This document shows, piece by piece, positions 1 to 63,690 of a stretch of 64,000 bases of DNA. Under the pieces are notes generated by a model. It was not told the DNA's origin and made no database searches. It was given only the letters and a program-made list of their open reading frames with translations. The position numbers and the translations under genes are program-made. This stretch comes from Brachycybe producta (taxonomy: Eukaryota; Arthropoda; Diplopoda; Playtdesmida; Andrognathidae). Positions within the stretch are counted from its first letter, which is position 1. Every line of letters starts with the position of its first letter. The DNA is taken from contig JAUPFP010000039.1 of NCBI GenBank assembly GCA_036925085.1, positions 1,365,501 to 1,429,500 on the forward strand, in the 5' to 3' direction.

Positions 1-870
1 ATCATCACAAACTCTTTATATACACGGACCACAATTGAAAACGATAACCTGCTGTCAGTGTGGGCAACTTATATGACTTTGATCATCAATGCCCAAAAAA
101 AATGCTTGTCAAGAAAGGCTTTCTAGTCACCACTTTGTGGCCAGACGCAACCACTCATTACGACTTGTGTTGCAACAACAACAACAACAACATAAAAAAA
201 CACGGTGGCAATGGCTCGTGTGAACAGTACCTATTATGTTATCAATGGTCTGCTAAAATGATCATTTTTATGTGTCGCCACCAAAAGTGGTCTGTGTGAA
301 GCAGGCCATATACGAGGAGCTTTTTTTTTTTCTCGAAAAGACACATGTCCATATTTTGACGTACTGCAGTGGCTAATGCTAAGCTCTATAGACGTTTTTG
401 TAAAAATTTAGACGCAAAAACGTCAAGCGAACGTTTTTTTTTAAATGAAAAATTCAACTTGTATTTGAAACTAGAATGGTAAAAGATTATGCTAAAAGGC
501 AATATCTTAAAAAATAAACATTTTATAGTTCAGTCTGGGGGGGATTTTCCATGAAAAAACTATTTTTCGCCTTTTTGAAACTATCATAAAAAGTTTATTT
601 TGAAAGATGTCATCATGAAAAAACTTTTAACATTATCATAAAATATTCTAGTTTCTAAGTGTCCAATAGGTGCTGTCAGTTGTGCTTTGCAACACTGGGA
701 TTCAAAGAGGGGGATGGACAAGCAGACATTATTTTCCACAAGATAAATGATTTTATCTTAGACCATTAGTAAGAAAGTAGAGTAAGTGGTCTAAGATTTT
801 ATTTAGCTCAGTGTTTATTATTACATGAGGTCTGTTTTCGAGTCAACTACTTCATTGTTTTGTTTTTTCA
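1..870. other. Left-edge non-coding DNA
   Basis: I see no gene here. Two short stretches, CACGGACCACAATTG near 24 and its approximate reverse complement CCAAAAGTGGTCTGTGTG near 281, could be the ends of a small inverted-repeat element of about 275 bp. A foldback repeat copy occupies 456-668. A splice-acceptor-like pyrimidine tract with AG ends at 871, just before the next gene, so that gene may have an untranslated first exon in this stretch. Confidence 0.4.
456..668. repeat. Foldback repeat, subfamily B copy
   Basis: The copy opens with GAAACTAGAATGGTAAA and closes with ATTCTAGTTTC, and has matching inner arms (AAAATAAACATTTTATAG against CATAAAAAGTTTATTTTG). It belongs to the same palindromic family that recurs throughout the window. 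This subfamily has a shorter loop containing a CCATGAAAAA-type segment; similar copies lie at 48050, 51540 and 63510. Confidence 0.7.
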
Positions 871-892
871 GTAATTGAACACTTTTCAAATA

Positions 893-2734
893 ATGGAGGC
901 AACTGTTGCTGATTTAAATATTGGTTCTAAGAATCTCAAGTCATTTGAGTTTCAGCAAAGAAAGAAGGCCAAATATGATGATTCCGATCCTAATCTGTCC
1001 TCGCTTAAGCAGCTTGGAAGACCCTGCAGTCACGATACCGAAAATGTTTGCTGTAATTCAGTGACTTGGAGTGACATTTCAGAAAACCGAAAACAATTTT
1101 ACTTTACCAGTAACAAGGAAAATCAAGATAAGGTGCTAATGCTCTTTATGTCCGTATCGGAACCTACGAGAAGACGTGCTAGAGAGGATTCGGTTTTATC
1201 GAAACCAAGAGAGGTTTCAGTCAAATTTTTTATGAAAGTAACATCAGAAAATGGGGAGAGGATGGTTCCTGTATGCAAATCCTTTTTTTCGTTTGCTTTT
1301 GGAGTTTCGAAAGCACGATTGCTTCGAATAGGAAAAGTTATTAACAGTGGGTCGATTCCCACTGAAAAACGTGGTGGAGATCGTAAGACTAAAAGATCTG
1401 CAGATAAAAGGGAAGCAGTAAGAGACTTTTTAAACAATCTAAAATGCTGCGAGATGCATTATGGTAGAAACGAGAGTAGACGAAGTTACCTTTCGTCAGA
1501 TTTGAGTATCAGCAAACTACATCAAATGTACGAAAAGTCGGCGTCCCCCGAAGTATCCGTTACATTTCCGTTATTTTACAAAATATTTGTGAATGATTTT
1601 AATATTGGATTCTCTTCGCCTGCTTCCGATGCTTGCGCAACCTGCACTCGTTTGAAAAATGAAATCAAATTAGAGCCGAATGATACACAACGACATCAAA
1701 ACCTTACGACGGAATATCACATTCACAAAATGCGGGCTGATGCTTTTTATAAAATTCTGAAAGAAGTCAGTGGAATTGCAAATAGTGCAGCATTCGTGTT
1801 TGACCTACAGCAAGTTCAGCCACTTCCCAAGACACCGATAGAAGATGCTATTTGCCGTCGACAAATAGGTCTTTATGCGGTTGGATGTGTCCCGATTGAT
1901 TCGAATAACCCGACATTTTATACGTGGACGGAAGTTCAGGCTGGAAGAGGAGGATTCATTCAGATTGGTTCAGCTGTTTTGCACCACCTGAAGCATCTCA
2001 ATTTAAAAACGTCTACGGAAACAATATTTTTATTTTGTAACGGTTGTGGTGGGCAGAGTAAGAATGCTCATATTTTGCATCTCCTTTCGTTTTGGTTGAA
2101 AAAGGAGTCGCCGGAACATTTGCAGAAGATTCAGATCACATTCCCCGTCCGAGGACATGGTTTGTTGCCTGCCGAAAAGGCGTTCGGTAGGGTCGAGAAG
2201 TTGTTAAAGAAGATTCCAGAAGTGAAGAGTAGGGAGGAGTACGAAGCCGTATACAGGAAAGTAGGTTTGGTAAAGCAGCTTGGACGAGACTGGAACCTGT
2301 ACAACATGAAGGAGCTGGAAGACGTATATCGTAAAATCGATGGAATAAACCAAGCAAAAAAAGTAATTATTAAAAAATGTAAAATGAGGCAAGGAGGAAT
2401 CACAACGAACATGAAATGTTTGGTGAACTACAGATTTGAGTGCTCACTCACGGATGAATACAAGTCGATAGTAAAAAAAGGAAAACATGAAGATAACTTA
2501 CGACATCCATCACAGTTGCCGTTGAAACATCCGTTGTCGAAAGAAAAGAAGAAGGATGTGCTCCATCTTCTGAAGACTCATTACGGAGACGAGTGGAGAA
2601 ATATTTCGGATCTGCAGTGGTATAAAACCGTACTCGACGACGAATCGGATGACGAGGAGGAGGAAGCCGTAGATGCAGACTTTGAAGAAATGTGTGATTG
2701 TTTGGATGAAGAGTGTAGTGATATCCACATTTGA
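893..2734 (+). CDS. Transposase-like protein, single exon (DUF7869-like)
   Basis: An uninterrupted 613-residue frame. An in-frame TAA at 872 makes ATG 893 the first usable start. Visible parts: a basic, Lys/Arg-rich N-terminal half; a Cys pair CATC (248-251) after a conserved-looking PASDAC; then an RNase-H-like layout with D304 (FVFDLQQVQPLP), FCNGCGGQSKN (381-391), and GHGLLPAEKAFGRVEKLL (421-438) with E435. The C terminus is very acidic. From memory, related animal proteins read SDGC..QNKN and GHSFLPADR..GRVEKLL. If so, the second catalytic Asp is Asn (N383) and a conserved Asp is Glu (E428) here. That would suggest a dead enzyme or a domesticated protein, although the frame is intact. A poly(A) signal lies at 2923. 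The family assignment is by resemblance only. Confidence 0.6.
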   Translation: MEATVADLNIGSKNLKSFEFQQRKKAKYDDSDPNLSSLKQLGRPCSHDTENVCCNSVTWSDISENRKQFYFTSNKENQDKVLMLFMSVSEPTRRRAREDSVLSKPREVSVKFFMKVTSENGERMVPVCKSFFSFAFGVSKARLLRIGKVINSGSIPTEKRGGDRKTKRSADKREAVRDFLNNLKCCEMHYGRNESRRSYLSSDLSISKLHQMYEKSASPEVSVTFPLFYKIFVNDFNIGFSSPASDACATCTRLKNEIKLEPNDTQRHQNLTTEYHIHKMRADAFYKILKEVSGIANSAAFVFDLQQVQPLPKTPIEDAICRRQIGLYAVGCVPIDSNNPTFYTWTEVQAGRGGFIQIGSAVLHHLKHLNLKTSTETIFLFCNGCGGQSKNAHILHLLSFWLKKESPEHLQKIQITFPVRGHGLLPAEKAFGRVEKLLKKIPEVKSREEYEAVYRKVGLVKQLGRDWNLYNMKELEDVYRKIDGINQAKKVIIKKCKMRQGGITTNMKCLVNYRFECSLTDEYKSIVKKGKHEDNLRHPSQLPLKHPLSKEKKKDVLHLLKTHYGDEWRNISDLQWYKTVLDDESDDEEEEAVDADFEEMCDCLDEECSDIHI

Positions 2735-4214: not shown

Positions 4215-4575
4215 ATTTTCTTTAAAGTTTATGAACAGCTTATTTTCGAACGTTGTTTATTCTGTTTTTCAGGAAGCAAATTAAAGAGAAAATTGATTGT
4301 GTTTTAGAAACTAGAAGGGCAGCTCAATCACTTAAGAATATTTTCATGTTGATATCTTTCAAATTAAGCGTTTTACGTGAGGTTGAAAATGACCCAACTT
4401 TAAGCAGACGATATTTTTTTTTAAAAAAATTCTTTATGAAAAGCTTATTTTGAAAGATATTAACATGAAAATACGCTGAAGGGATTGAGCTACCCTTCTA
4501 GTGCGTCAAATACCTTCAAGTGTCTCTTCATTTTATGCCTAAAAGGCAGAATAATCAAGAGTTCAAGATGTACTT
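4215..4575 (+). repeat. Foldback repeat copy between the transposase-like gene and FAM151
   Basis: The left arm begins GTTTATTCTGTTTTTCAGG and carries GAAACTAGAAGGGCAGCTCA. The right arm carries GAGCTACCCTTCTAG and ends CAGAATAATCAAGAGTTC. The loop (GAAAATGACCCAACTTTAAG) is in plus orientation. Confidence 0.8.
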
Positions 4576-4605
4576 TAAAATCACATTTAAGATTTGTCTA
4601 AAATT

Positions 4606-6976
4606 TCATCTAAATTCATGTCTTGAAATCTCTTGAAGAAACTCTTCTCGAAGTGGACTCGAAAGATCGTAATAAACTTTAGTAATATCGAAACTGCGTC
4701 TGAATCGCATGAGGTCATCGGTGGAGATGGGATCTCCTTGGCTGGACCAAACTGTCAGTGTGGAACCGGAAACAGAGTTCAGAAGGTGAGTCAATGGAAC
4801 AATCGAGTTCTTTGCAATACAGGCTCTTATGGAGAAAGTAACCAATTGATGACCAGCAGTGGTGGCTCCCATGGCGGAGGAGGATGAGGCCGAAGACGAA
4901 CTGGTCACTCTGGCTTTAGTCAGGACTTGAATCATCTCATCGACCATCGCTTGAGTGTAGGACGGATGCGGAACGTTCGGGTCCAAGAACGTCGTCCAAC
5001 CGAGAGATAAGACGCTTTCTGGTAATTCGTGTCCCAAACCGAGGAATTTCCGAGCGTCCATCGGAACCGAAATAGGATTCGTTGGTCCTTGTAAGATGTC
5101 CGTACTTAGAAAGACCGGAAACTTAAACTAACGAAAAAAAAATTAGTAATTATCTTGTGTAAATTCAATGTTTAGGCCTACATTCCTTGCATCTAATCAT
5201 GACGTAACCATTTTAAACAAATTTTACACAAGAAATTCTTGAAATTTACTTTTAAAGTCAAAAAGGATCTCAATGTCGTAAGCGAAATTTACTCATGTTA
5301 TTAATTACTTTCGTACCCGTTTTGAATGTTTCTTGATGACTTCAATGGTGGGACCGACCACTTTGAGTTCTTTGAAGTTCAATTTAATTCCCTTTCTGTA
5401 TTGAGTCACTTGCGATAACCATTGGTCAAGTGTGAGGTCACTTTTTGTGGTCGGTGGATGAGCCATGATTGGATTTTCAGCTCCGTCTGTTGGCGACGGG
5501 CTCACATCTGCTTCGAGGACCATCACCTTGCCTTAATTACGATAAGATTTTTGAAATGAAATTTAGGGCACAAATTATAAATCATAGGGTAATGAATAAG
5601 GCCATAATGGCAAAAATGTGCAAATTGTTTTTAGAAATTATGCATTTATTGCAAATTGAAAATGTATATTATTAATATATTAACAACAATTAATTAAAAA
5701 AATGTGCCAATCTTCAGAAACAAAGAAAATGGAAATTCAAACCTATTTGGTGGTTTTAAAATGTTAACTGCCTCTCAAAGTTTGATTATTAGTCTTTTAA
5801 GTACGAATTGAAGAGAAATTTGAATATGTTTTAGAAACTAGAAGGTAGCTCAGAATACTTAAGGGGATTTTCATGTTGATATCTTTCAAAATAAGCTTTT
5901 TACGTCAGTTTGAAAATAACGGAAATTTAAGCAGACGATATTTTTTTTAATTTTTGCTCTATACGAAGTTTATTTTGAAAGGTGTTAACATGAAAATACA
6001 TTTACGTGATTGAGCTATCATTCTAGTTTCTAAAACACTTTCAAGTTTTTCTTCATTTTTCTTCTGAAAGACAGAGTGAATAATCACAGTTCAAGATGCG
6101 TTTACACGTTAAAAACCACTTTAAGAAAACCTTTGTAGATTTTTTTTTCTATCAAAAGCGGTTTTTATAAGAAATAAGTGAATTTATGTTAATATTTTGG
6201 CTTTATTTTATTAATGATGGAATGGAGTGAATTACTTAATAGAGCTTCTTCTAAGGATTGTTTACTGTTTGTTGCATGAGCCCATGTGATTCTACTTCCA
6301 TCTCCTCCTGCTCCAGGAAAGAATTCCAAAACATTGACCCTGTTCTTAGGATGTAGAGTGTAATAACCTAAAACAAAAGCATCAGAGGGATTGTTTTTGT
6401 TAACATTATCTTTGCACACTCTGTACATCCAGAATGATGCTCAACAGAAAATGAAAGGAAATAATTAAACTGGTTCTAGTATTACAAGAAATCTCTATTT
6501 TAAGGACTGCAATTCACACTTAAGCAGTTCTGTAAATCACTTTTAAGTAAAAATGCGGACACAGTTAGCAATAAAAACAACGAAACCCAAAGTAAAAAGA
6601 GGGTAATGCTGGATACAGATGGTCAATTCGGACTTGTCTATCCTGGACATAGAAAGATACAACTTTGGTTCAAATCGTAATGCTTAGCAAGGATGAGAAC
6701 ATTAGCAATTAGTAAAAAAAAAAAGGTGAAGTGTAGGCGCTGCTCGCTTACAATTTCAAAAGAAGACCAAAGGATGGACAAGCCAGAGTTGAACATATGT
6801 AGGCCTACCCAGCTTGACATTTAACGTCAATAATATTTTGAGAGAATTTATTTCTTCTTACCCAGTAATACATTGCATATTAAAAGACCAATTGCCAAAC
6901 ATCCCAATTTCAGCACTGGGCTTTGTCCTTGTAATTTACCATGAAGCTTGGAAATATTAATAAAGACAAAAGTCAT
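4606..6976 (-). CDS. FAM151: FAM151/menorin-family protein, 4 exons
   Basis: Coding exons are complement(6862-6976, 6236-6367, 5317-5531, 4606-5127), 984 nt, 327 residues. Residues 21-38 form a hydrophobic segment (VLKLGCLAIGLLICNVLL), a signal anchor or signal peptide. The family core follows: LEFFPG, ITWAHATNSKQSLEEAL, VMVLEADVS, IMAHPPTTKSDLTLDQWL and GIKLNFKELKVVGPTIEVI, then PVFLSTDILQGP, LGWTTFLDP and a C-terminal QLVTFSIRACI. These match the order known for FAM151A/B and the C. elegans protein menorin, which acts extracellularly in dendrite patterning. The fold is phosphodiesterase-like, with no confirmed reaction that I can state. Intron 2 contains a foldback repeat. The gene is divergent from the MAM gene to its right. 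Exon joins are my own reading. Confidence 0.85.
5765..6130 (+). repeat. Foldback repeat copy in FAM151 intron 2
   Basis: The arms are TTTTAGAAACTAGAAGG and ATTCTAGTTTCTAAAAC, the inner arms CATGTTGATATCTTTCAAAA and TTTTGAAAGGTGTTAACATG, and the loop is in plus orientation. Relative to its host gene it lies antisense. Confidence 0.8.
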
Positions 6977-8217: not shown

Positions 8218-11200
8218 ATGTGTTCTGGAATTAAGTTTTTCGTGATTTTCATTTGTTTACTATTTTATTTTAATTTTAAAGTTTCTGGTCAAGAAAATGT
8301 GATGCTTTTTGACGAACCTATTGACCAACAGGTAAAAAATATAATTCGAAATTGATCATACATATTGTTAATGTTTTTTTTAAAAACAACTCTCAAACTC
8401 TGATTATTCCGTTTTTCAGGAGCAAAATTAAAAGAATATTGAAAGTGTTTTTTAGAAACTAGAAGGGTAGCTCCATCACTTACGGGTAATTTCTTATTGA
8501 TATCTTTTAAAATAAGCTTATGTCAGTTTGAAAATGACCCAAATATTTTTAACTATAGAGCAGAGACTATATTTTTTAATTTTTGTCTATACAAAATTTA
8601 TTTTGAAACGTATCAACATAAAAATACTGTTAAATGATTCAGCTACCCGTTCTAGTTTTTAGCACACTTTCAATATCAATCTGAAACGCAGAATAGCCAG
8701 AGTTCGAAAGTGAGTTGTAAGTGAAGGATTCTAACCGATTTTGTTACAGAATTTAGACGAAGAAGAAGAAAATGTAGCGAACGACTTTGAAGGAAGGGCC
8801 GATGTTACGAGTGCCTATTTTTGTAATTTTACTGCACTTGAAAATCCAACCAACACTTCCGTGATTTGTTTTTGGAACTTGAATGCTGCTACGAGTTGGT
8901 TTTCAAAACCCGGTTGGTTGCTTGGAAGTGGACCCGAAGCGTATTTCATTGGCGGACCTACGGTTGATGGTCTGCAAGATCCGAATGGTTTGTTTTAATT
9001 TGTCGAATTCCTCATTTTGCCAGCATTTTTCAGTTAATTTTATTATTGTAAATCTTGTGTGAAAAGGTGGTTATGCATTTTTTGACGTTGGTGACACTCG
9101 TTGGAATGCACCAAATAATAAGTCAGCTTGGTTGGTCAGTCAAGTGTTCAATCCGACCGGTCCAGCTGGTTATTGTTTGGGTTTCCAGTATAATCTGTAT
9201 GGACTTGGTATTGACTCTTTACGTATCTTCATACTTTACAATCTCGTGATGAATCAAACGGTTGGAGCGTTAGGTCCCATTGCTACATCGGTTTCAAAGT
9301 ACCAATCCACGATGCTCTGGGAGAAGAACGACACCACTAATGGCAACTGGACACAAGCTAGTGTCAGTTTTGCCTCGCAGTTGCCATTTCTAGTATGTTT
9401 GCATCATACAATTTACATCATTAAGAGCATAGAGACAATTCAGAGTTGCACTTGCCATGAAACAGGTCAATTTTGTGGGTAGAAAGTTGCTCAAATGGCT
9501 CTAGTGACCAAATGACGATTTGAACCGACACAAAAGTATCTCAATACATTAAGAACATATTGAGTTGTAAAACGGACTTTTTTTTAGGTCACTAAGCATT
9601 AACATTGTTCGAGCAATTTAGCATAATTCAAAATTGTATAAAATAAAAACCTCTTTGAATATTGCTACCAAAAGACCTTAATACCCGGCCACAACATTCA
9701 AAAAGTGATTGTAACTTCAATTATTGTTCAAAACAAAGTTTAAAAAGAGATTTGTTGTTAGGATCGAGATCATGTTTTTGGAAACTTAATGTTGCATCTG
9801 TGGCGTCATGCTCAGCACGTGCACTTGCTGGAATGTTTCTAGGCTCTTGAAACAAGTTTGTTTCGTGGTTTGCCTCTAATGGTCAAGTTCGTAATGCGAT
9901 TTCATCGTTTTTTAGCTTGCATTTGAAGCAGTTCCATCAACGATACTGGATAAATATGAAGGTTATGCAGCTATAGATAATACCGTCATCACTAGTGGTT
10001 CATGTCCAGGTGCTTATCATATTTACGATATTTTTGATTTTATAAAAGGTTCACTTTTTAACAATTTTTTTTCTCTAAAAAGGTGGTTGTATTTTTGAGG
10101 CTAATTTCTGCAGCTGGAACAATTACATTGACGACGAGTCTAAAGATGAATTCAATTGGAAGTTGGCAAGAGGAACTACGAGTACAATCACAGGCCCTTT
10201 AAGAGACCACCTCAGCACCGAATCAAAGATACTTCCCGGTGGTTATGCTTACATCGATTCTTCTTATCCTCGACGTCCTGGAGACACGGCACTTCTGTTG
10301 GGGCCAGCTTATCCTATATCAGCCGGTATGATTAACGTGCTTTTTTAAAAAAACTTAAACACTTCCCCTTGAACTGTTGTTATTCCTAGTAGTGTTCTTT
10401 TGAAATATCATGACACATATTAAACAAATAGCATTTTTTTACATTGCAAACAAAAGCATTTAAAGTTTTTGTAATTTCTGTTTTCAGTTAGTGACTACCC
10501 ACTTTGCCTTTCATTTTGGGTATCTGCATTTGGTCCGAGAGTTGGAGATTTAGTTGTGAGCATGATTCCAGATCCTGCTTTGAATTGTACTATTTGTGCA
10601 TCAACTGTTATTTGGAAACTGCGACCCGAAAAGCTAGTCGGTCTTCCCGATTTGTGGTTTTTGGCACAAGCGATTCTTGTCTCTCCATTCAATTTCAGGG
10701 TTTGTACTTTTGAATTTATAAAGGACCTACAAACAGGCAAACCTAGGAAATATTGCCTAGCAGCGCCAAATAAAATAGGGCGCTTAAAATTCCAGAAATT
10801 ATAAGAATTAGTATAATAATTCTATTTTTTTACATAATTTAATTAAATTATAATTTGATTTTAACATAATTTTCTATTTTATGAGGTAAGGGGGGGGGGG
10901 AGGGGGGCGCAAAAATATCTATTGCTTAGAGGCGCCAATGATACAAACATGGTGCTGCCTGTTACTGTTGATTCTGTCACTTCAGGTCCAGATTGCTGCC
11001 ACTGTGGGTGACACCGGAGAAAGCGATATTGCGATTGACGACATCAGTGTACAACCTGGAGCTTGTCCAGGTTTGTTTTTACGAAAAAAAGGCCTCCTCC
11101 TCCTGAGTGAATTGACCTAACTTTTTGAGCTTTTATCTTTCAAAAGCTATGCCATCAATTGCTTCTCCACCCGGTGATTGCACATTTGACGATGACCTTT

Positions 11201-13024
11201 GTGGTTACTATGTTAAGAGTATAAGACAGGCCCCTTACAGTCCTCCACTTTGGGAACACGTCAGGGGAGCTTTGTATCCTGGTTGGCCACTTGGACACAC
11301 CAGAGTTCCTCGTTACAAAATTGGTAATTAATTGTAGCAACATAATCAGTGATCTAATTACCCTTCTAGTCTAGAAAAGAATAGTTTGAAAATCAGCTGA
11401 AAATCTATCTGAATGAGATTTTTACATGAAAGATGCTTTATACGTTGCATGACTCCGCTTTAAAAGTGTCATTCATTTTCTCACAATGTTGTTTTTTGTC
11501 CTTTATATATGCAGATTATTACATGCGTTTCGAAACCAACAATTTCCAGCACGCACCACTGGATCGTGCTTGGTTGGTAAGTCCTATTCTGTTGGCCGAC
11601 GGTCAGACAACGAGTTTTTGCCTCACGTTTTGGGTCAATATGTTTGCCATGTCTCCGGACAAAAACGGACTCGGTGCTCTCGAAGTTCTCATCTTAGATG
11701 CTAGCACATCTAACGAGCCAAAACCAATTTATACAATTGTTTGGCGACTTAACAATCATCAGTCGCCAAAGTGGGTTTACGGTCAAGTTCCATTCACCAT
11801 CAACAATTCCACACAAATAGCATTTGATGGTATTGAAGGGCTTAGAACATTCGGTAACATCGGTGTTGATGATGTTGCCATTTTTCCTGTTTACAATGCT
11901 TCAATTTGCCCAAGTAAAAACATTTATTTGTTCAAATACGTTTTGAAATCGGTGTTTTTTTTTTAAAAAAATGTTTTATTATTATTTTCAAAAAATACAG
12001 TTTTACCAGCAAAGGCAGAAATGGAAACAGGTTTCTTTATTAAAGTTTTATCTGATGTAATTTTACAAATGTAGATTGCTTTAAATGTGTAACGTTTACT
12101 TTGCAAAATGTAGGAGATTGTTATTTTGACACTGGAAACTTGTGCGGTTGGACGGCCGGTGGTTCGATTCCTGAAGCTCCTACGTGGGTTTTGGCATCTT
12201 CGTGGCAGGCGCCCGATTTCATTAATGATCATACATTCGGTGCGCCGAGAATCGGTTTTGCATTCTTCACTCCAGCTGGAGAAACTGTGAAGCAGCAGGC
12301 TGTTCTGGAAAGTCCCGAAATATTTAGGCCAGAGAATATGATAGGAGCATGTTTCAGTTTTTGGTTTTTAGCGGCAGGAATTGATCCAAGTACGATTGTT
12401 TCGTTAATGCTAGCTTATTAAAATAATTAAGAAGTTGTGTATTTAATTTTAAATAACGTTTTTTTAGATGCTGTCTTGACTGTTGCGGATCGTACGAATG
12501 GAGCACTCGGTGCTTCCGAACTTTTGCGCATAAAACACAGTGATTACGAGAGTCCGCATCCAAAATGGAATTTCGGCCAAGTGACAGTTGGTCAGAACGT
12601 GAGCACTTTCAGGGTACGAACAACTTCTTAACGATTTAGAAAAAAATGTTTTTATTAATTTGTGAGGTTTTTATTTTATAATTTATTTATTCAATTATTT
12701 ATTTAATTGTTTTAATTATTTAATACTTTTATATTTATAATATTTTTTAAATTATTTACTTAACTAATTATTTATTTACTTAATTATTTATTTTAATTAT
12801 TTCTATGTTTATTTAATTGTTTAAATTTTATTTATTTGTTAAAGGTTCATTTGTTAGCGACTGGGGCGACTGGAACATTTGCCATCGATGATATCACAAT
12901 TTCATTGGTTCCAGCACCTTGTGCTAGTAATAATAATCATAATTCCATTTATATCATCAGTTCGTTTTAATATTTTTAATTACACGTTATTTTTTTAAAT
13001 TTCGTCATTTTAGGTAGGCCATAA
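8218..13024 (+). CDS. Secreted protein with four tandem MAM domains, 14 exons
   Basis: Exons: 8218-8331, 8750-8987, 9067-9392, 9916-10009, 10083-10325, 10488-10699, 10986-11070, 11147-11323, 11515-11913, 12001-12030, 12114-12389, 12468-12613, 12845-12926, 13014-13024; 2433 nt, 810 residues. Residues 1-24 are a signal peptide (MCSGIKFFVIFICLLF...). MAM 1 spans exons 2-4 (CNFTALENP to AIDNTVITSGSC). MAM 2 spans exons 5-7 (CIFEANFCSW to AIDDISVQPGAC), MAM 3 exons 8-9 (CTFDDDLCGYY to VDDVAIFPVYNASIC) and MAM 4 exons 11-13 (CYFDTGNLCGW to AIDDITISLVPAPC). MAM domains are extracellular adhesion or interaction modules with paired cysteines. I see no protease, transmembrane or lectin part, so it is probably a secreted matrix or cuticle-type protein of unknown role. 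A 30-nt microexon joins MAM 3 to MAM 4, and the last coding exon holds only SRP and the stop. Confidence 0.85.
8384..8715 (+). repeat. Foldback repeat copy in MAM gene intron 1
   Basis: The left arm carries CTGATTATTCCGTTTTTCAGG and GAAACTAGAAGGGTAGCTCC, and the right arm TCAGCTACCCGTTCTAG. It ends CAGAATAGCCAGAGTTCGA. It is the only sizeable repeat in this otherwise compact gene. Confidence 0.8.
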
Positions 13025-37039: not shown

Positions 37040-37410
37040 TTAAAATCTTTTATGAACAGGTGATTTTCAAACTCTTTAATTATTCTGTGTTTCAGAAGAA
37101 CAACACTAAGGAGAAATTTGAAAGTTTGCTGGAAACTTGTATGGTAGCTGAATCACTTTCATGTTGATGTTTTTCAAAATAAACTTTTTATCGAAAAAAA
37201 TAAAAAAAATATTGTCTGCTTAAAGTTGGATCATTTTCAAACTTACATATAAAGCTTAATTTAAAAGATATCAAACATGAAAATACCTTTAAAGGATTGA
37301 GCTACTCTTCTACTTGCTTCAAACACTTACTAGATTTTCTTAATTTTGCTCCTGAAAGACACAGGTTAACGAGGAGTTCAAGGCGCGTTTACACTTTTAA
37401 AAAAAAGCTT
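37040..37410 (-). repeat. Foldback repeat copy, intergenic
   Basis: The left end TTATTCTGTGTTTCAGAAG, a minus-oriented loop (TGTCTGCTTAAAGTTGG) and the right arm GATTGAGCTACTCTTCTA. Confidence 0.75.
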
Positions 37411-48568: not shown

Positions 48569-51500
48569 ATGTCCAAGTTTCGTGTTCACGCCGTTCGTTT
48601 TTACAATCCGGACCCAATTGCAATCCACAATTTGGCTTATTGCGAGTCGAATGAGAAAATCGCCGTTTCACGGTAATCCGCCGCCTCCTCCTCCCCCTCC
48701 TAATCTTCCTCAAATGGACCATATGGCAAAACTCAGTCCGATATTCGTATTTAATTTTAAATTTCTTTATTCTTTTTTTGTAGCGCTGATAATTCTGTCG
48801 AAATATGGGATTTTAAAGAGTCTCATTTGTACCAGGAGAAGGTTTACTTTGTTTAAAAAGTGTTTTAAGTTTCTTGTCATTATCGTCTTAATTGTGTTGA
48901 GGATTTTTTTAGGTAATTCCACCGGTTGTCGGTGTTTCTATCGAGGCTCTTGTCTGGTGTCGAGGCCGTTTATTCAGTGTCGGTCTGACAGGAGTCATAA
49001 CGGAGTACGACTTGGTCAATTTAAAACCGAAGGTATCGTGTGTCGGGATTTTTATCGTCTTGTTTCATATCGGTTAACTAAATGACGAAGAAAATATATA
49101 AATCTGATTGAAAACTGCAGAAAATTATCGAAAAATGCTGAAATATGTTGTTAAATTTCAGCATTTTGCGGTAGATTTTGCAGTTTCTTGTGTATTTTTG
49201 TGTTTGAAGAAGTTTTTTGTGTCCTAATGTAGGTTTTTTTGCCTACTTCATTCGGAGCAAGTTGGTGTTTGGCTGCAAATCAAGCTGAAACACATTTAGC
49301 TGTTCGTATTTTGTGTGTCGCTTGTTTGTATAGTGCGTTATAGTTGCGGTTATTTTTTTAAATTGTAGATTGGAACAGAAGAGGGATATGTTTGCTATTT
49401 CCGCGTTTTGAATGATTCACTTGAGTATGAGAGAACGTTTGATAAACAAGAAGGTAATTCTCATATAGATCAGGTTTTTTAGGCCGTTTTTGACAGTTCT
49501 TGTTCTATATTATAGGTAGGATCATGTGTTTATCTTGGCACTGTTCTGGAACTTTCATCGTGACCGGATCGGTGGGTACGATTCGAGTTTGGGACGTTAA
49601 GACAGGTCACGGAATACAAAGAATGACTGTTTGTAAATCAAAAACAAGAAAGGAAACGATTGTTTGGTGTGTTGCATTCACAAAGTAAGTTGTAGATTAA
49701 AAAATTACATTTGAGAACTGATGTTTAATTACGGATTTGGGTTAATTCATCAATCGCGTGGAATATTTGTACTTATGTTTTTTTCGTTTCCACAGAGAAA
49801 TGCACATTGTGAGTGGGGATTCGAGAGGTTTCATTTCATTTTGGGATGCACAGAGGGGCATTGAACTTATGGTCTGTATTTATGTTACCTTCCGTCATTT
49901 GTGTTATCCGTTTTATTTTCAACATCATTTTCGTTTTAATTTAGAGTTTCAAGAGTCACCGTGCAGATATTTTAAGCCTTGTTCTTGAAAAGGTTATCTT
50001 AATACGCAACAAAGTCACAATACATCACTAGTACTTTGGTTATTTTGTATTTCTGAAGCAACTTTGTTAAGAAAACTTTGAATTGTTTTAGAAACTAGAA
50101 GGTTAGCTCAATCACTTATTATGTGTAAGTTTGTCTTGATATTTTTTAAAATAAGCTTTTTATGTGCGTTTGAAAATGATCAAACTTTAAGCAAACAATA
50201 TTTTTTTAATATTTGCCTATAAAAAGTTTATTTTGAACGATATAAACATCATGAAAGTCCACCATTAGGTGAGTCAGCTACCCGTTCTAGTTTCTAACAC
50301 AATTTCAATTTTTTCTTCGTGGTGGATTTCTTAAATTCAGAATGTTATAAAACATCTTAAGAGTTCAAGTTGGCAAACGGCAGTTTGGAAATGTCCAAAT
50401 TTTAAGTTTTTGGTTCATAAAAACTTTATATTTAAACTGACACGTGTGTTTAAATAATCAGTTATGCTTCTAGTTTCTAAAACACTTTCAATAACAATTT
50501 CTTCTTAATGTTGCTTCTAAAATGCATAATAATCAAGAGTTTGATTAAAAACAGTCGTAATGGGATGTGTCTTTTGTTTTCGGTTAATTCTAGAACGAAA
50601 GGAAGGTTTGGGCAAGCGGAGTCGATCCACAGGTCGTGTCTTTCGAGCGTGTGAATACCGGCGATGGTAAACTTTGGGCCAAATCTACCATTCGTAACTT
50701 ACACACGCACGACGTTAGAGCGCTAACGATGGCCGGTCAATATCTCGTTTCTGGAGGTTTGTGCCTCGTATTTTCGCCCTCTTTCTGTATTGCATATTGT
50801 CCGAATAACCTGTGAATTTTTCTTATATATCTATATATATCTATGTAGGTGTTGATTCGTACCTGTCTTTGAGCATATTTCCACCTAAAATACACTATAA
50901 ATATTCTCCTCTAACAAACGTTTGCATCATATTTCTCAAATAATTTTATTTTAAAAAGTTTCGTTTCTCATAAGTGCAATTTTTTCTTTAGGGTCCGTGT
51001 GCTCATGTGGCCAAGACGGCAAACTGTCTTTTGCTGCAATATCATTCGAGGTTAGAACTGTGGCGATTAGGCAGTACCAAAGAAACGGCATGTTAGTATA
51101 TTTGCATCATACGAATAACGGGATTTTTTTTTTTTTTAAAAAAGCTGAAATTACTTTTTTGAAATGTTTGCTGTTATGAAGTTTTATTAAATTTCTACGG
51201 ATTATTTTAAAATTATTTTACCCTAAACACCGTGCAGAAAATCATGGAATCACGTGCAACTGCACATAAATCGATTGAGAACGTGTGTATAACACTTGAA
51301 AACGCTTAGGAAGAAGAAAAAAGCATGCTGTCAACATGTGCAACAATTGGAAAATGCACTTTTTCATGTGTTGTCACGCGTTTTCATGAATTTGCAAGTG
51401 TTTTTATGTTTTTCTTCATCTTTCCACGTCGATTTGAACATGTTTCTGTGTCTGGCGGTGCAATTTGCGTTCATGAAGGTGGCACCATATATGTTTTCGG

Positions 51501-53429
51501 AAGCAAAAACATCGAGTAAACTTTTTTTTTAGATACAATACGAAAAAAATTCAAATTGTTTTGAAAACTAGAATGATAAATTATAGCTTAAGTTTTTTCA
51601 TGACAATATCTTTAAAAATAAACATTGTATAGTAATTTAAAATGACCCATTTATAGCATCAACTTTTCATGAAAATTACTTTCGTCTTGTCTTTTTCATA
51701 CTGCCATGAAGATATCATTCTCAAACAATTCTGGTTTCTAAAACAGTTTCAAAACTGAGGAGTTAGGTGGTGATAAGCACCTTTTAAACGCTTAATTGTC
51801 AGTTAATTAAATGTTTTTCTGTGTTTTTTTTTCCCCCGGCGCGTTTCTTAAAAACATTAAAATTATTTTCTTAAAAATTAAACATTTGTGGTTTAGGCGA
51901 GGATAACAAGTTGCTAACCCTTTCAACACAACAGCTGAAACTCGTAGAACTAAAGGCAAAGGAATGCGAACGTATCATTTGTTCAGCAATTTCACCCGAT
52001 GCTAATTGGCTAGTTTATTCCACCAACACGAGTCTTCGGCTTTTTCAAGTTACTCAGGTTTGAATTCATTCCGTGTGGATGTTATTTGCCAAAGTATGTT
52101 TACATTGCTTGAACAACTTCTATTTTTTAAAAGGAAAATTGCGATACTTCGTTTCCGACGGTCAGCATTTCGAGAATTAGATTCTTGCCAAAGGAATGTC
52201 AACCGGCTCGTTGCCTTGCTGTTAACTCATCGGCCACACAGATCATCTCGCTGCTTTCTTCTGGTGAATTGCAGATTATCAAAGTGGACCTCGTTCAACC
52301 TACGCTATTGCACCATTTTAGGCCTGAAGGTAATTCATTTAGTTACCGCTTACTGCGTCTGAAAATTGTAACGAAAAAACGTCTCTGTCGTTCGCTACTA
52401 GGTTTGAAGTCAGGTTGTCATCTTTTGAGTATAAACGACAACGGTCGATATGCTGCCATTGGATCTCATTGTGGTCAAGTTATTGTCTATGATATCGAGA
52501 AGTTCAAAGTAATTTCTGTTTTAAGCATATTCTTGTATTATTCAAGTTTTAAAAACAATTTGAATTTTTTCACAATGTTGTTTCTAAAAAAAAAGTTCAC
52601 TTGACATTTTTGTAGCCAAATTTTCCAAAAACGTCTTATTTCAGCCACCTTAAGCATTTTCGAAAATTCGGGCTTTGCCGGTGTTTTTTTTCTTTTCATA
52701 CAATTGTCAGTCTGAAATGCGCGTTAATATTAATGGTTCTACGAGATAAGAGATTCAGTTCTATTTTGTCGTATTTGATAGGTTCATTGCAAACTACCAA
52801 GGAGAAAGTTTCAGGCAACAGCTCTGGCTTTCACTCCACAAGAAATGCAGTTGGTGGTAGTCTACCAAGATAAAAAGGTTATTTTTCTTATTTTGAATCA
52901 TTGTTTCGTTTATATTAATGACGTGATTTTTCAAAAGATTTTTGGATTCAACACCGAGAGACAACAATACTCTAAATGGAGCGTGAATTTAGATATTGAA
53001 AGCCCTCATCTTTTCAAAGTTTCTGAATTTGCTTTACAGGGCATAACATTTGACTCTCGTGATCATTCAATCTTGATCGTTCACGATGACAGAATGCTGT
53101 ATCTGATTAATACAAAGGTTTTAAATTCCGTACATTGGCTACGACGGCCATCTTTTAACTGTTTCTCTATTAAAACTAGATTTTAGAGGACAAAAACAAG
53201 TACAACGATGCCGTTAAAACATATCAAAGATATGAAGTAAGAATTTAATGAATTTAATATTAAAAAGGTGAAGTGCGGTCAGCAACAGTAATTTTATGTT
53301 TTTGTTTTCTAGCATTTAGTACACTTCTCGGGTGTGAGTAACGATTTTATGGTAGCTGTCGAAGTTTCACCGTTGTCTCTGATTCATAAACTTCCCCCCG
53401 CTTTGAAGCAAAAGAAATACGGCACGTAG
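48569..53429 (+). CDS. UTP4: UTP4 (cirhin), small-subunit processome WD-repeat protein, 18 exons
   Basis: Exons: 48569-48672, 48784-48841, 48913-49032, 49233-49301, 49369-49453, 49516-49684, 49796-49871, 49945-49992, 50594-50756, 50849-50919, 50992-51091, 51897-52057, 52134-52329, 52402-52508, 52782-52877, 52938-53117, 53189-53236, 53313-53429; 1968 nt, 655 residues (human about 686). UTP4 is part of the t-UTP/UtpA subcomplex that binds nascent pre-rRNA in the nucleolus for 18S processing. Two beta-propellers of WD40 repeats are expected. Landmarks: FRVHAVRFYNP, ADNSVEIWDF, RLFSVGLTGVITEYDL, GRIMCLSWHCSGTFIVTGS, GFISFWDAQRGIEL, HTHDVRALTMAGQYLVSGG, SRLELWRLGSTKET and the end LPPALKQKKYGT. The exon 11 donor (GCAT|GTTAGT at 51092) was chosen because it alone keeps the frame into exon 12. 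Confidence 0.95.
50040..50545 (+). repeat. Foldback repeat copy plus a right-arm fragment, UTP4 intron 8
   Basis: 50040-50330 is a near-complete copy (GAAACTAGAAGGTTAGCTCA; GCTACCCGTTCTAGTTTC; plus loop). 50400-50545 repeats the right end (GCTTCTAGTTTCTAAAACAC; AATCAAGAGTTTG). Confidence 0.75.
51530..51760. repeat. Foldback repeat, subfamily B copy, UTP4 intron 11
   Basis: TGAAAACTAGAATGATAAAT to ATTCTGGTTTCTAAAACAG, with inner AAAAATAAACATTGTATAG. Confidence 0.7.
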
Positions 53430-53711: not shown

Positions 53712-56700
53712 TTAAGTCATTTCCGGCTCAAACTTACGTTCCTCGGCTCTGGCCCCCCTCTCGATAGAATTTGAAACCCATTTTTCTGTGACAATGTGAA
53801 ACTTTCTCTGGTTTTCTCTATTGACCATTCGGAAGTGATTCACACGATCACAATTTCTGAAACGATAGAACAGAATGGTCTTAAGGACTAAATTCAAGAA
53901 AGGAAACAAAGACCTGAACTTTAACATGAACCCTGCATTATTTATTAGAGAGGGGTGGAAATTTTATTAAATATATTATGTCTTAACAGGTTATTATTCG
54001 ACATTGCAACTTTTAAAAATAAACTGTCAATTTGCCATAGGCCGGCCCTTTGGGCTGCTTACATAAGACAATCAGAAAAATGCATTTTTCAGTCAAAGAA
54101 CCTGTTTATATTGGAATTCTAACCTCTAACCAGGTTCTTTGACTGAAAAATGCATTTTTCTGGTAGATTTAGTAATTCATTTAGTAAATTCAAACCATCA
54201 AAACAGGGCACACTTATTGCACCCATGCCACTAGTGATCTGCCACTGTGTGAACTGTACATAATGGGTTCAAGTTTAAAATTCAGCGTTTCCTTCTTGAA
54301 TACATAATAAATGCAGCAGTTACTCGCTGTTCTCACTTGGAATCTATTACGATATGCGTTACTCTATTGTTGAGGTCCTTAGACAAAGAAGCCCCGTAAA
54401 ATCTCAATTCTAATGCGGTCATATCTAACGGGCTGCTTGCGATTTTCGTGTCTTCTTTACCAACATCTGCATACATGTCCAGGTACACGATGCATGTTCG
54501 AAACAAACCTAACGGAGATGAATCTGGAAAGTATTTCGTCTCGATCTCTGCCATTGTCTCGCAATCCATCACCACCTGTCGGATGTAAACATGAATAATA
54601 ACTCAAAAGTAATGTGGTAAACCAAAGCCATTCATATCACCTCTGTTTTGATGTTCGAAAAGATTGTTTTCAAGTCCAACGGGGTGACATCAGTTGTATA
54701 ACTATCTCCAAAAACGTCGTAATTAGTAGATAGTAGGCTTGAAGTATTTGGTGATGCATGAAGCATATCCGAAGGAGCCCTATTTAATCAATGTTGCAAT
54801 ATTGGCCTCATGTTTGCACTGTGTGATAATTATATTGGTTACCATTGTAAAATTTCTTGTTGTTCTATGCATCTTAAAAGCCAGTCGCATTTGACAACAT
54901 CGTAAATGTCGGCCTTAATGACATTCTTGACTCTAATTGATACGATATCGGCCAGTGTGCACATCGTTGCCTCTCTCGGATTCTGAACGACGCTGCCACC
55001 ATGTTTAACGATCAGTTTTTCTAAATCTTTTTTTGAGTTATCTTTTGCTCCATAGTTAGCAACGTAAAATTCCTTGTTTTTAAACAACTGAGAATCCTGG
55101 GAACAAATATGGAATAACTTTTAGCTAGAACCTCATCTAGTTGATCAGAAAATAACCTTTTCAATCTGCGAAGCATCGATGCCACGAAAGTGAGATGCAA
55201 CTGCCACTGGTTGTTCCAATTTCGCCACTGCTCGTCTCTTCTTTTTTGGCGATTGATCATCGGTTGCATCGTTCAAAACGTGTTTGGAAGCTAACTTACC
55301 AGAAGCCAACTAAAATGAAATTTCAATGTTATTCTTCGACATGTGCTAGTTTGTATACCATACCAACCTGTCTCATTTCGTGAAGCTCGCACACTGTCAT
55401 GCATTGGTGCCACGGTTTATCGTAACGTACTTTTTCGACTCGAGGAAATCTAAGCGTGCAACCTGTTTTAAATTTATCACTGTCCACAATCTCTGCTGCT
55501 TTCACCTAAACAAAACACAAAAAGAGAGAAACACCACCAAATAAGATTTTGTAATTTATATTAAAATGTTTTATAAACAGCTGATTTTCAAACACTGTTT
55601 ATTTTGTGTTTCAGATGAGCAACAATAAAGACAAATTGAAAGTGTTTTAGAAACTAGGAGGAGGCTCAATCACTTATTTGTCTTTTGAAATATTTTTTGT
55701 GTTAGTTTAAAAAAGGGCACAACTTTTGGCAGACAATATTTTGCTTATAAACAGCTTATTATACATGTATATTGTCGGCTTAAATTTCGATCATTTTCAA
55801 ACTCACATAAAAAGTTTATTTTGAAAGATGTCACCATCAAAATACCCTGAAGTGATTGAGCTACTCTTCCAGTTTCTAATACAATTTCAAGTTTCTCTTA
55901 ATTTTGCACCTGGAGGAAAGAATAACCAGAGTTCGTGGGGCGCCCGTTTACACTTTTAAACAAGCTGAACCTTACTTGAACTATGAAAGATTTTGAAGGC
56001 TCGATACACAAATCCGGCCTTTCTTTATGACCGTGAGCTAAAATGATACTCTTGGGAGGATTACGTCTGTCGTATGGCTTCAAATTAGCCTCTAGTTTGG
56101 AACACAGTTCTCGGAGTTCCTGCATTGTATATCCAGAACCAACTCGACAAACGGTGTGAAATACACTTGGTTGGTCATCTAAATTAACAATTTAATGGTG
56201 ATTCCTTCAAAATTACTAATCATGAATCAAAGGACACCTTTATTGTCTGGATCAACAGCCACGGCCAAAAGAAAGTGTGAAATCATTCCCTTTCTATGTC
56301 CCGTTCCAAAATATCCTCCAACTATAAGCAAATCGAGCTCGTCCATCAGACCATCTACGTATTCCGGTTTGAGTTTGATCCAGCCACCTTTTCTAGTATT
56401 TGGTTTGTACACGGAATCGGGATCCTTTACGACTATTCCCTCTTCACGATTGTCGATAGCAATGTTCAGAGCATCGACAACATCTTGGCTGTAAACGACA
56501 AACGGGTATTTTGAAGGAATGAATGTGGTTTTCCCCTCTCTTCTTTTTAGACCTCGTATTTCCCTCTTTGCGTGGAGGTACCAGTATTCGTCCCTTCACT
56601 GGTGTGAACAGTCCTTCCAAGTGTTTTAGTCTTTCTTTTAATGGTAAATTGGACAGAACTTTTCCATTGTAGAGTAATATGTCAAAGACGTGATAACATG

Positions 56701-58860
56701 GTTGATAATCGTCTCCTTCACGCAAGAACTTCACATCGAAATTGTCGGCTTTTGTCCCTGCAAATTCAATCATCACAATAAATAAGACAGAACAATGAAT
56801 TTTAACAAGTCTAGAAAAATTCATTCAACCAGTGAATTGATCATGAATATTGTAACCCATCATCTCTCCGTCTAAAATGCAAGAGTCAACGTTTTTGTTA
56901 AAAGCATTCATGATGTGAGGTGTGAGCGTTCCAGAAGATGGATCTGATCCGTAATTGTGACTGTAATCATTACCTCTTATAAAATACAACAAACTCAAAA
57001 TTAATATAAAATGTAAAATGCCTCTAAAATTCTGACTATTCTGTTATTCAGGAGCAACATTAAGAAATACTTGAAAGTTATTTAGAAAACAGAAGATGAA
57101 TCACATAAGACTTATTTTCATCTTAATCTTAAAAAATAACACAATTTTAAGTTTTTAACACTTGCAGGCATTTTCTTTTTAAATTTTCAGTTCTCCAAAG
57201 TTTTTTTTAAAGATATTACATCTGAAAATGTGTCTTTAAATTATTCATTTACTTTTCTAGTTTCTAAAACCCTACTAAATATTTCTTTCAAAACGAAGAT
57301 TAATCAGAATTTGATTCTCATGGAAACTCTTCTTAAAACCTAGAGCGGCAGTTGAATCATTTAATTTTTCATGTTGATATCTTTCGAAATAAAGTTTGTA
57401 AAGACACAATTTTTTTTTAAAAATATCGTCAGCTTAAAGTTGGGTTATTTTCAAACTAACATAAAAAGCTTCTTTTAACCTTCTAATTTTTAAAACACTA
57501 ACGTTTCTCTTCATTTTGCCAATGGATCAGAATAAGGGGCGTTTACACTTGAAAACCACCTTAAAATCTCTTAATTTTAAAAAAAATATTTACCCTCTAG
57601 AAAAATATTTAAATTGATTTCCTTGTTTGTGCAGTTGCATTCGTTCGCCGTCGTGTTTAGTCTCGATGTAGAAAGTTTTCTTATGCATTAGTTTTTCCAC
57701 CTTTGAAATATCGAATGAAATTACAACTTTATTTCTAGATAAAACTATCAAATTTACTAAGTTACTTTGTTAGGAGGCGCCCTTTCTGCCAACATTGGTC
57801 TAAACGGAGAAAATATCGAGATGTCGATCTCGTTCAAACGGAGTTTAGGATCTCGTAGTGTAATGCAAACCTTAACGAAACAAAACTGATCTAAGTCCGT
57901 GTGCCTTACATTTCTTAAGAGTGACCGAGACCTTAGCTAAACTGTTGGTGACATCGTAAAGGTCCTTTGCATCTGCGTGAAACGTATTGAGGATGGATTG
58001 TTCGCTCAGACCGAACTTCATCTCCTTCATGATCATACGAATCAACCATTTCTGTTCCATTGCAGAAGTGTTTCTTAAAAGATGTAGCAGATGTTTCTTA
58101 ACTCCGTCTGTGCGAATTAACCTTTGTAAAAATACCTTTGCGATTTTTTTCGTTAAAAATTGTTTTTTTTTAATACCTTTGTTTTTCGCAGCATTGCAAG
58201 TTGCGATTCCGTCGAGATCGGTCGTAACATCGGAGATCTTCAGACTACCTGCTTCCGGACATCGGTTCTTTAATACAAAATAGGCCACCATCGCGAAATC
58301 TCGAACATCCTAATAAAAAAAACCACGATTTTAATGAAAAATGTTCATGTATTGATTTATATAACAAACGTTTTTCATGTTTGCAGGAAGACGATAGTTG
58401 AGTAATTTCTTTGCATCTGCACTCTCCTTGTTCAAGTTAAGAATTTCTATGTACAATTTGGCTAAAGTGTTCTGTAAGTACAAAATACAAATTAGATTTA
58501 ATTGTTGCGATCTTTCAATTTCTTGTTAGCTGTGATATAAAAGAACCTCTTTGATTCCATAAGGGCCTCGATCTCTGTCGAACTGAGGCAACAATAGTTG
58601 CATTGCCGAATGAAACGAATCTGTCTATGTTTGTAAACAAGTTTTGAGTTTTAAAATTAAGTCATTTTAGTTTTAATAAGTTATACTGTGGTGTTGGTGT
58701 CTTTCTTGTGCATTTTGTTGTGAAATTCGCGCCATGTTCCCATGAAATCTGAAAGAATCTTCTTCTTGTGGTCGTTTCCTTGTTTCGAACTGATTTTTTC
58801 GCATACAAGACACAGGTCGGAAAACGGCACTTTACTTGCAACTGTCGTCGTTGTCGACAT
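53712..58860 (-). CDS. LIG4: DNA ligase IV, 16 exons
   Basis: Exons, complement: 58687-58860, 58547-58624, 58370-58471, 57932-58309, 57766-57870, 57594-57700, 56830-56975, 56553-56757, 56238-56488, 55976-56178, 55368-55505, 55157-55309, 54843-55096, 54641-54779, 54337-54575, 53712-53856; 2817 nt, 938 residues (human 911). ATP-dependent ligase of non-homologous end joining, working with XRCC4. N-terminal DNA-binding domain ([28 protein letters not shown]); adenylation domain with catalytic K294 in [31 protein letters not shown] and [21 protein letters not shown]-fold ([13 protein letters not shown]); nuclear signal-like PKKKRR (650-655); BRCT 1 (about 681-765, CDWLLRCIE); an XRCC4-binding linker ([15 protein letters not shown]); BRCT 2 ending at FEPEMT. 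All catalytic motifs look intact. Mammalian LIG4 coding sequence is intronless, so the many introns are the older state or later gains. Foldback repeats lie in introns 6 and 10. Confidence 0.96.
54073..54162. repeat. Perfect hairpin, 32-bp arms, 26-nt loop, in LIG4 intron 15
   Basis: The arm CAGAAAAATGCATTTTTCAG... (54073-54104) is the exact reverse complement of 54131-54162. Within each arm AAAAATGCATTTTT is itself palindromic. Unrelated to the common foldback family. Confidence 0.9.
55565..55965 (-). repeat. Foldback repeat copy, LIG4 intron 10
   Basis: The left end TTTATTTTGTGTTTCAG, GAAACTAGGAGGAGGCTCAA, a minus-oriented loop (TTGTCGGCTTAAATTTCGAT), the right arm GAGCTACTCTTCCAGTTTC and the end CAGAGTTCGTGGGGCG. 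The copy fills nearly the entire intron. Confidence 0.8.
57030..57320. repeat. Foldback repeat copy 1, LIG4 intron 6
   Basis: CTGACTATTCTGTTATTCAG at the left and TTACTTTTCTAGTTTCTAAA at the right. The middle is diverged. Confidence 0.65.
57320..57570 (-). repeat. Foldback repeat copy 2, LIG4 intron 6
   Basis: CATGTTGATATCTTTCGAAA inner arm, minus-oriented loop (ATCGTCAGCTTAAAGTTGGG) and the end GGGGCGTTTACACTTG. The two copies together make up nearly the whole intron. Confidence 0.65.
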
Positions 58861-58894: not shown

Positions 58895-59245
58895 AAAGAT
58901 GATTTATGAACAACTCTGGTTATTCTGTTTTTCGGAAGCAAAGAAACTTGAATGTGTTTTAGAAACTAGAAGGGTAGCTCAATCACTTAAAGAGTATTGT
59001 CATGTTGATATCTTTCAAAATATGCTTTTTACGTGAGTTTGAAAATGACTCAACATTAAGCAGACGATATTTTTTTAACTTTTGTCTATAAAAAGTTTAT
59101 TTTGAAAGATAACTTGAAAAAAATACCTTTAAATGATTGAGCTACCCTTCTAGTTTCTAAAACACGTACCAGTTTCTCTTCATTTGTCACCTGAAAGGCA
59201 GAATAATTAAGAGTTCGAGAGGCGTTTAACACTTCAAACACAAAT
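58895..59245 (+). repeat. Foldback repeat copy between LIG4 and the kinesin-13-like gene
   Basis: One of the best-preserved copies: TGGTTATTCTGTTTTTCGGA, GAAACTAGAAGGGTAGCTCA, a plus-oriented loop (AATGACTCAACATTAAGCAG), ATTGAGCTACCCTTCTAG and the end AATTAAGAGTTCGAGAGGCG. It starts about 35 bp upstream of the LIG4 start codon, so it may lie in the promoter or leader. Confidence 0.85.
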
Positions 59246-60714: not shown

Positions 60715-61030
60715 AAGATTCTAGTTTCTCATTAGAAAATAATTTTAGTTAAAAATTTATAAAAGAAATTAAATGAGTATAGGAGTCGTAAGTAGTTTGT
60801 AACGATATCTTTCAAAATAAACGTTTTATGGTAGATTTAAAAATGAATCGATGAATTTAATTCTTCGGTTTTAACTTCACTTTTTTATGTAATTTTTTTA
60901 TTATTATTATGTTTTTAAAATGAAACACGAAATATCTAGTTTTTAACGAATTTGAAATGAAAATCAAAGAATAGATTGTCACAAGTTTATTTTGAAAGAT
61001 ATCATTATGAAATTACTTTCGAATTTCTTA
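60715..61030. repeat. Diverged foldback copies
   Basis: GATTCTAGTTTCTCATTAG, CGATATCTTTCAAAATAAAC + GTTTTATGG and GTTTATTTTGAAAGATATCA are recognisable arm segments. The whole is rearranged. Confidence 0.5.
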
Positions 61031-61145
61031 AGAAAGTCATTTCTGATTAACAAGAAGAGGGGGTGGGGGATTACATTTAAATCCTCCTCATCCCCCTCTG
61101 GTCCGTCTTTAACCCAAATTGAACCCACCGGGCCCAAATTTGTGC

Positions 61146-61178
<33 letters not shown>

Positions 61179-63500: not shown

Positions 63501-63504
63501 TATT

Positions 63505-63690
63505 AGATAATTTCAAGTTTTATTTGAAACTAGAAGAGTAAACGAAGGTGAAAAGAGAAATTCCACAATGATATATCTTTTAAAATAAACTTTTTATGGT
63601 AGTTTGTAAATGATCAAACCTTTAAAAATATCATAAAAGTTGGTTTATTTTTTGAAAGTCATAAAAAATATTACTTGTACCCTGTGTACA
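63505..63690. repeat. Foldback repeat, subfamily B, right-truncated copy
   Basis: TTTGAAACTAGAAGAGTAAA, TATCTTTTAAAATAAACTTT and TGGTTTATTTTTTGAAAGTC are present. The outer right arm is missing. Confidence 0.65.

Follow-up and report, generated by a model that had tools for sequence, protein, structure and literature searches.

Excerpts of the published accounts consulted here indicate that duplication of TTAA combined with 5′-RR and YY-3′ ends marks a transposon as Kolobok rather than piggyBac (PMC9587614; PMC6004289), piggyBac ends having CC[C/T]T adjoining TTAA (PMC2872659). Among Kolobok transposons and their MITEs, the T2-MITE of Xenopus combines TTAA duplication, a terminal purine pair, lack of autonomy and very old age, and the KolobokP lineage is known to form multimers (PMC6004289, PMC9587614, as excerpted). 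The two families of foldback elements that we describe here from Brachycybe producta, A and B, resemble these elements in all of these respects. When three motifs of A and B were sought in open-access literature text, the part of that text reached by the search returned only papers with unrelated titles.

Foldback copies in the window and across the genome

The window (that is, the whole 64,000-nucleotide stretch of DNA analysed) contains a dispersed inverted-repeat family, as seen both by fuzzy matching of the motifs on which the original prediction was built and by a BLAST search of the window with one copy. When up to 4 edits are allowed, the outer core occurs 15 and 14 times on the two strands, the inner core 21 and 22 times and the loop 8 and 7 times. 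Profiles of A and B built from genome copies mark 28 merged loci, or 31 units once abutting copies are split, which lie in both orientations and cover 7,997 bp (12.5%) of the window; neither the window in reverse nor any of five first-order shuffles (320 kb in all) has a match to these profiles. The original prediction of a dense foldback family in both orientations is therefore borne out. The copies are listed below, each recognized by profile, with any further evidence given in brackets.

298–807, plus strand: family B copy, model positions 3–554, with decayed ends (304.7 bits)
4218–4584, plus: family A copy with a strong hairpin, z −10.45 (also folding)
5749–6121, plus: family A copy, nearly full length, with a 33-bp stem (also folding)
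8383–8722, minus: family A copy
17562–17782, minus: family A copy within an intron of ERMP1
19164–19451, minus: family A copy within an intron of ERMP1
24181–24518, plus: family A copy within an intron of ERMP1
25603–25950, plus: family A copy with a CCACCTTAA end, in an ERMP1 intron (also consensus ends)
26708–26941, minus: family A copy
34231–34301, plus: family A fragment
34350–34470, plus: family A fragment with a CCACCTTAA end (also consensus ends)
34595–34892, minus: family A copy, diverged
36221–36527, plus: family A copy
37059–37400, minus: family A copy
41903–42154, minus: family A unit, the first of two that abut
42157–42427, minus: family A unit, the second of these two
43748–43937, plus: family A half, possibly one interrupted copy together with the next
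43987–44153, minus: family A half
45596–45820, plus: family A copy, truncated
47928–48410, plus: family B copy, model positions 2–555 (232 bits)
50012–50343, plus: family A copy
50377–50544, plus: family A fragment, 34 bp after the preceding copy
51490–51752, plus: family B copy, partial
52520–52634, minus: family B fragment
55569–55967, minus: family A copy with a diverged centre, scored as two units
57010–57315, plus: family A unit, the first of a pair within an intron of the DNA ligase gene
57331–57563, plus: family A unit with a CCACCTTAA end, second of that pair, in a DNA ligase intron (also consensus ends)
58910–59242, plus: family A copy, the best match in the window, with a 34-bp stem (also folding)
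60803–60848, minus: weak family A fragment (19.4 bits)
60981–61019, minus: weak family A fragment (16 bits)
63511–63599, plus: single arm that only an arm profile detects (32.7 bits)

Copies had been placed in the introns of all six multi-exon genes. This holds for ERMP1, where the copies at 17562, 19164, 24181 and 25603 lie between exons at 13880 and 26193, and for an ATP-dependent DNA ligase gene, where those at 57010–57563 lie between exons 56227–56824 and 57872–58309; the MAM exons identified at 9063–12421 have no A or B copy among them. The 3′ splice-acceptor-like motif YTTTCAG occurs 66 times on both strands of the window, 15 of these inside 24 copy intervals that make up about 12% of the bases, and the consensus of the A arm carries TCTGTCTTTCAGG. 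Elsewhere in the window are a Menorin-family frame between two A copies (4606–5127, minus strand; PF10223, E 1.7e-38), an array of GCGCCAAA-type units with many inverted-repeat calls that are unrelated to the MITEs (15654–16310), and a 217-amino-acid ORF that is weakly similar to PNMA (29226–29876; E 0.068, below the cut-off) and is perhaps the remnant of a Gag-like retroelement.

When the genome was searched with one window copy, a first look yielded 8,193 candidates; 40 of them were scored, and a consensus was made from 30 returned loci. Twenty random stretches of 1.5 kb (30 kb in total; starts drawn from 20 contigs of known length among the 442, the stretches sitting on 7 contigs) contain 12 units, which are spread over 7 of the 20 stretches and account for 7.9% of the bases. 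Extrapolated to the 295.3 Mb of the 442 contigs, this corresponds very roughly to 118,000 units, fragments being counted as units (Poisson range on 12, about 60,000–200,000). The flanks of other copies, which are not an unbiased sample, hold 46 units in 82.5 kb. As the random stretches and the flanks are also rich in units, the density of the window is not special, and the roughly 8–12% of sampled bases that belong to A and B make the two families a large part of the Brachycybe producta genome. Exact 27-nt A termini occur 100 times genome-wide and exact 29-nt B termini 358 times, and the reversed patterns of both are absent genome-wide.

Among the contigs, C442 has a stretch of 21% GC that encodes COX1 with four AGA codons (serine under table 5), followed downstream by COX2-like and ATP6-like frames, which points to an arthropod. 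COX1-like matches on the large contigs C17 (3332011–4029047) and C1 (12697416–12698753) represent either nuclear mitochondrial insertions or assembly joins.

Two families with a common inner arm

Family A is about 380 bp long, with the consensus TTAA|GGTGGTTTTAAAGTG...CACTTTAAAACCACC|TTAA, and family B about 550 bp, with the consensus TTAA|GGTGGCTGAATAG...CTATTCAGCCACC|TTAA (left end also written TTAA|GGTGGCTGAATAGATATTTATTTTG), so that both consensuses have the ends TTAA|GGTGG...CCACC|TTAA. Each is a long palindrome, A with arms of about 165 bp around a short asymmetric loop and B with a longer loop. They are short, are non-coding as judged from the consensus and the copies read, carry terminal inverted repeats and occur as many dispersed copies, as is typical of MITEs. 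The foldback family originally described is thus real, although it is not a single one, as the copies at 298–807, 47928, 51490 and 52520 score best as B; likewise, the outer core does recur but is not the element end, as family A extends about 85–90 bp further on each side, to TTAA.

The relationship between the two families is confined to part of the arm. Positions 85–160 of the A arm align to the B arm with a score of 96 (best of 500 shuffles, 46.5), whereas positions 5–84 score 34 (best shuffle, 34.5), and the outer arms have only the terminal TTAAGGTGG in common, the A right arm reading TTAAGATGG. An inner TTAA stands at the same arm position in both consensuses (CACTTAAGGGTATTTTCATG in A, TGTTAAAAGTTTTTTCATG in the right arm of B). 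This combination of a common inner arm with different outer arms is one of three less ordinary features of the two families, the others being their multimers and their old age.

When 195 arms were grouped by outer flank in search of further families, only one cluster of nine, consisting of multimer neighbours, and two pairs emerged. Several other repeats were seen beside copies: one A copy lies between outward-facing copies of GGTGGGTCCAGACAAGAACAG... (L023:1400–2000), perhaps a third TTAA family, and another repeat, TTTAAAGAGA..., starts at TTAA in both L070 (from about 285) and L080 (from about 245), where it adjoins one truncated copy of A and one of B and possibly belongs to a TTAA family with AGAG ends. 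In L104 (about 735–945), a B element has an internally repeated stretch and an inserted palindrome of about 200 bp of another kind.

Insertion at TTAA

Among 32 alignments that reach both model ends, TTAA lies within 8 nt of the expected left end in 21, of the right end in 20 and of both in 15, against a background of 0.18 per random position and with a profile that itself contains TTAA and so favours its detection. The clearest case is L092, in which a B copy flanked on either side by TTAA is nested in an A arm. Once B is excised together with one TTAA, an A element is left that aligns to the A consensus (141 identities, 21 mismatches), the CCACCTTAA end of this element included, and 174 rows from 60 sources match the joined flanks across the junction. 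Joined flanks were tested at 15 copies, of which 4 match across the junction (L092, L005, L025 and L066); the B copy of L005 has two weak junction matches, and the matches of L025 and L066 sit inside arrays. Two further nested copies, B in A in L074 and A in A in L060, start at the inner TTAA of the A arm on one side only. TTAA target site duplication is therefore directly demonstrated for one B copy, and for A it is indicated by flanking TTAA only.

With a TTAA-specific 4-bp duplication and GG...CC next to TTAA (that is, 5′-RR and YY-3′ termini), A and B would be classed as Kolobok-type MITEs, on the grounds of target and ends.

Decay of the arms

If a process maintained the palindromes, a possibility raised in the original prediction, the arms of one copy should be more alike than arms from different copies. 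Own arms differ by 22.6% and opposite arms of different copies by 24.2% (76 of 80 arm pairs usable), and shuffled pairings reach the observed mean in 3 of 2,000 trials. Set against the nearest relative, the relationship is reversed: own arms differ by 22.2%, the figure for crosses with the nearest relative is 18.7%, and own arms are the closer in only 12 of 57 comparable cases (Wilcoxon p 4e-6; 85 oriented pairs, 61 with an orientation margin of at least 5 bits). Shared ancestry therefore explains the symmetry, and the maintenance idea is contradicted. In 4 of 76 copies, the closest of all opposite arms is the copy's own partner; alleles seen in no other copy are common to both arms in 2 of 65 cases; and no left/right diagnostic positions that could reveal homogenization were found. 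Rare alleles (below 3% frequency) occur in both arms of one copy in 28 of 452 cases (7.8 expected), as do those of commoner classes in 46 of 573 (30.5 expected) and 192 of 804 (102.5 expected); given the nearest-relative control, we read the excess for rare alleles as subfamily structure.

Folding gives a similar picture. Over 24 window intervals (26 of the 31 units, five short fragments being left out; 25 shuffles each), the median z is −2.7. The claim that each copy would form a long double-stranded RNA does not stand, as z falls below −3 in 11 intervals and an uninterrupted stem of at least 25 bp is present in three (25–34 bp in these best stems). The interval 4218–4584 folds very stably, at −125.9 kcal/mol (z −10.45, from 100 shuffles). 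As the remaining 13 of 24 hairpins miss z < −3, decay of this kind weakens the proposed roles as substrates of ADAR or Dicer and in circular RNA formation.

Age and multimers

Both families are old. In the window and random stretches, 39 A copies differ from the consensus by a median of 19.5% (range 9.1–33.2%); in the biased set of all collected loci, the medians are 18.3% for A (n = 131, each with 150 or more aligned columns; minimum 7.8%) and 20.6% for B (n = 23, each with more than 300 aligned columns; minimum 14.4%). Divergence from the consensus in this small sample gives no sign of recent activity of A or B.

Units also abut. L021 and L025 have three in a row, L018 has two, and L035 has three units, in which a unit and its truncated junction recur with a period of about 252 bp. 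In the window, 4 of 30 gaps between neighbours are 60 bp or less (1.02 expected; 45 of 2,000 random placements reach 4), although some close neighbours may be pieces of one copy; the corresponding figures are 3 of 5 in the random stretches and 32 of 57 in the search-selected loci, which form a biased set. Neighbouring units of L025 keep nearly whole terminal arms, and those of L018, L021 and L035 have terminal arms shortened at the junctions, which may reflect loss at the spacer-free palindrome that two abutting ends form.

Search for an autonomous partner

Among the ends and THAP places that were read, no transposase gene was found between A or B ends. From lists of 40 near-consensus ends for each family, 20 A and 14 B ends were read about 640 bp inward (700-bp loci), and the family profile continues inward in all 34, with six early breaks that look truncated or nested and four loci that contain an open stretch of 100–140 amino acids. 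The 100 exact A ends include no facing pair within 10 kb, and among 100 listed of the 358 exact B ends there are two, 538 and 926 bp apart and both MITE-like.

THAP domains, which together with DDE and H2CH motifs mark a Kolobok transposase, were located at 106 places, and among the eight read (L093–L098, L101 and L102) none lies clearly inside an A or B element. By their frames, the eight include host-like THAP genes, a P-element-like transposase (L094) and a reverse transcriptase (L097); L095, L101 and L102 contain an 883-bp THAP-bearing repeat at 98% identity. L098 has A pieces on both sides of its THAP frame, which we read as separate MITE insertions, as each side appears to have pieces of both arms.

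The one transposase-like ORF of the window (875–2734; intact, 619 amino acids) is single-copy, has five distant relatives at 26–29% identity and no Pfam match up to E 10, and is followed by no A or B copy until 4218 on its right. From its sequence it looks like a domesticated transposase-like host gene and was rejected as the partner, which upholds the earlier statement that no coding partner is visible in the window.

Origin of the families

We suggest that A and B are decayed MITE families that inserted at TTAA, were presumably moved in trans by a Kolobok transposase, and owe their palindrome to the founder, with arms that decay independently (probability roughly 0.87). In this scenario, elements without an evident gene would have depended on a Kolobok-type transposase, as suggested by TTAA and the 5′-GG/CC-3′ ends, the founder's palindrome would have been duplicated with every transposition, and the two arms of each copy would have mutated independently after insertion. 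A striking pattern of hairpins throughout the window is in this way resolved to an ordinary source.

A piggyBac origin would also account for TTAA, which that superfamily duplicates as well, and the coral CMITEs, the elements most alike in behaviour (conserved interior, tandem arrays), are linked to piggyBac in the excerpted report (PMC2872659); A and B, however, begin with GGTGG and end with CCACC in place of CC[C/T]T, and we consider this assignment improbable. That the host, or conversion between the arms, preserves the hairpins because transcribed copies act as double-stranded RNA (that is, ADAR or Dicer substrates or helpers of circular RNAs), is in our view extremely improbable. The very stable folding of the best copies and the excess of rare alleles in both arms of one copy are what such upkeep might produce, but own arms are less alike than the nearest-relative cross, seldom have each other as nearest partner and rarely have private alleles in common, most folded intervals lack z < −3, and no Rfam family reaches its gathering score in the window. 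Nothing found suggests that the host keeps the hairpins, and the original prediction, right for the most part about structure, is not supported in its functional suggestion; host function is probably absent. Given the relatedness-controlled test, the symmetry is inherited and not maintained, which calls for caution when intronic hairpins are read as functional RNA.

The common inner arm could have arisen in more than one manner. The shared inner hairpin might itself have been mobile as a TTAA module and have given A and B by inserting into outer elements that were not related to each other, as the matching position of the inner TTAA and the strong match of inner but not outer arms would suggest; copies of A and B do insert at this TTAA (on both sides in L092, on one side only in L060 and L074). 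Yet the similarity of A and B passes beyond the inner TTAA, with 23 of 25 positions identical in the bin at arm positions 76–100 and 19 of 25 at 51–75, and among the 195 arms (125 A, 20 B and 50 unassigned) the sole cluster with three or more unassigned flanks is made up, to judge by position, of multimer neighbours. We regard such a module as very improbable. Rather less unlikely, though still a tentative idea, is modular evolution within the decayed Kolobok-type families that we favour, in which both sides of the loop retained a conserved inner arm of about 110 bp and the two outer arms, except for TTAAGGTGG, were exchanged together as a matched pair. Were the inner arm a second transposase-binding site or a replication-hairpin site, swapping of arm pairs would occur under selection on the element and not on the host, and the multimers would be a by-product of this swapping.

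Comparison with known elements

A and B are ordinary in kind, that is, TTAA-targeting MITEs, and unusual in the conservation of the inner arm and in their multimers. According to the excerpted accounts, T2-MITE has AGGRR after TTAA where A and B have GGTGG (PMC6004289), and KolobokP multimers have the structure (LTDR-INT)n with long direct terminal repeats, whereas in A and B whole palindromes abut (PMC6004289, PMC9587614). Tetris of Drosophila virilis, a foldback transposon tied to tandem repeats and satellite DNA (PMC4079207), is similar to judge by the part of its description consulted, the likeness being one of description alone. The coral CMITEs likewise combine TTAA, an interior that is more conserved across families than the terminal repeats, and tandem arrays; as described in the excerpt, however, they are about 100 bp long with 13–14-bp terminal inverted repeats and piggyBac-type CC[C/T]T ends (PMC2872659), whereas the conserved interior of A and B belongs to long arms and their ends are of the Kolobok type. 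An interior conserved across families with different outer arms would thus extend the coral CMITE pattern to elements with Kolobok-like ends.
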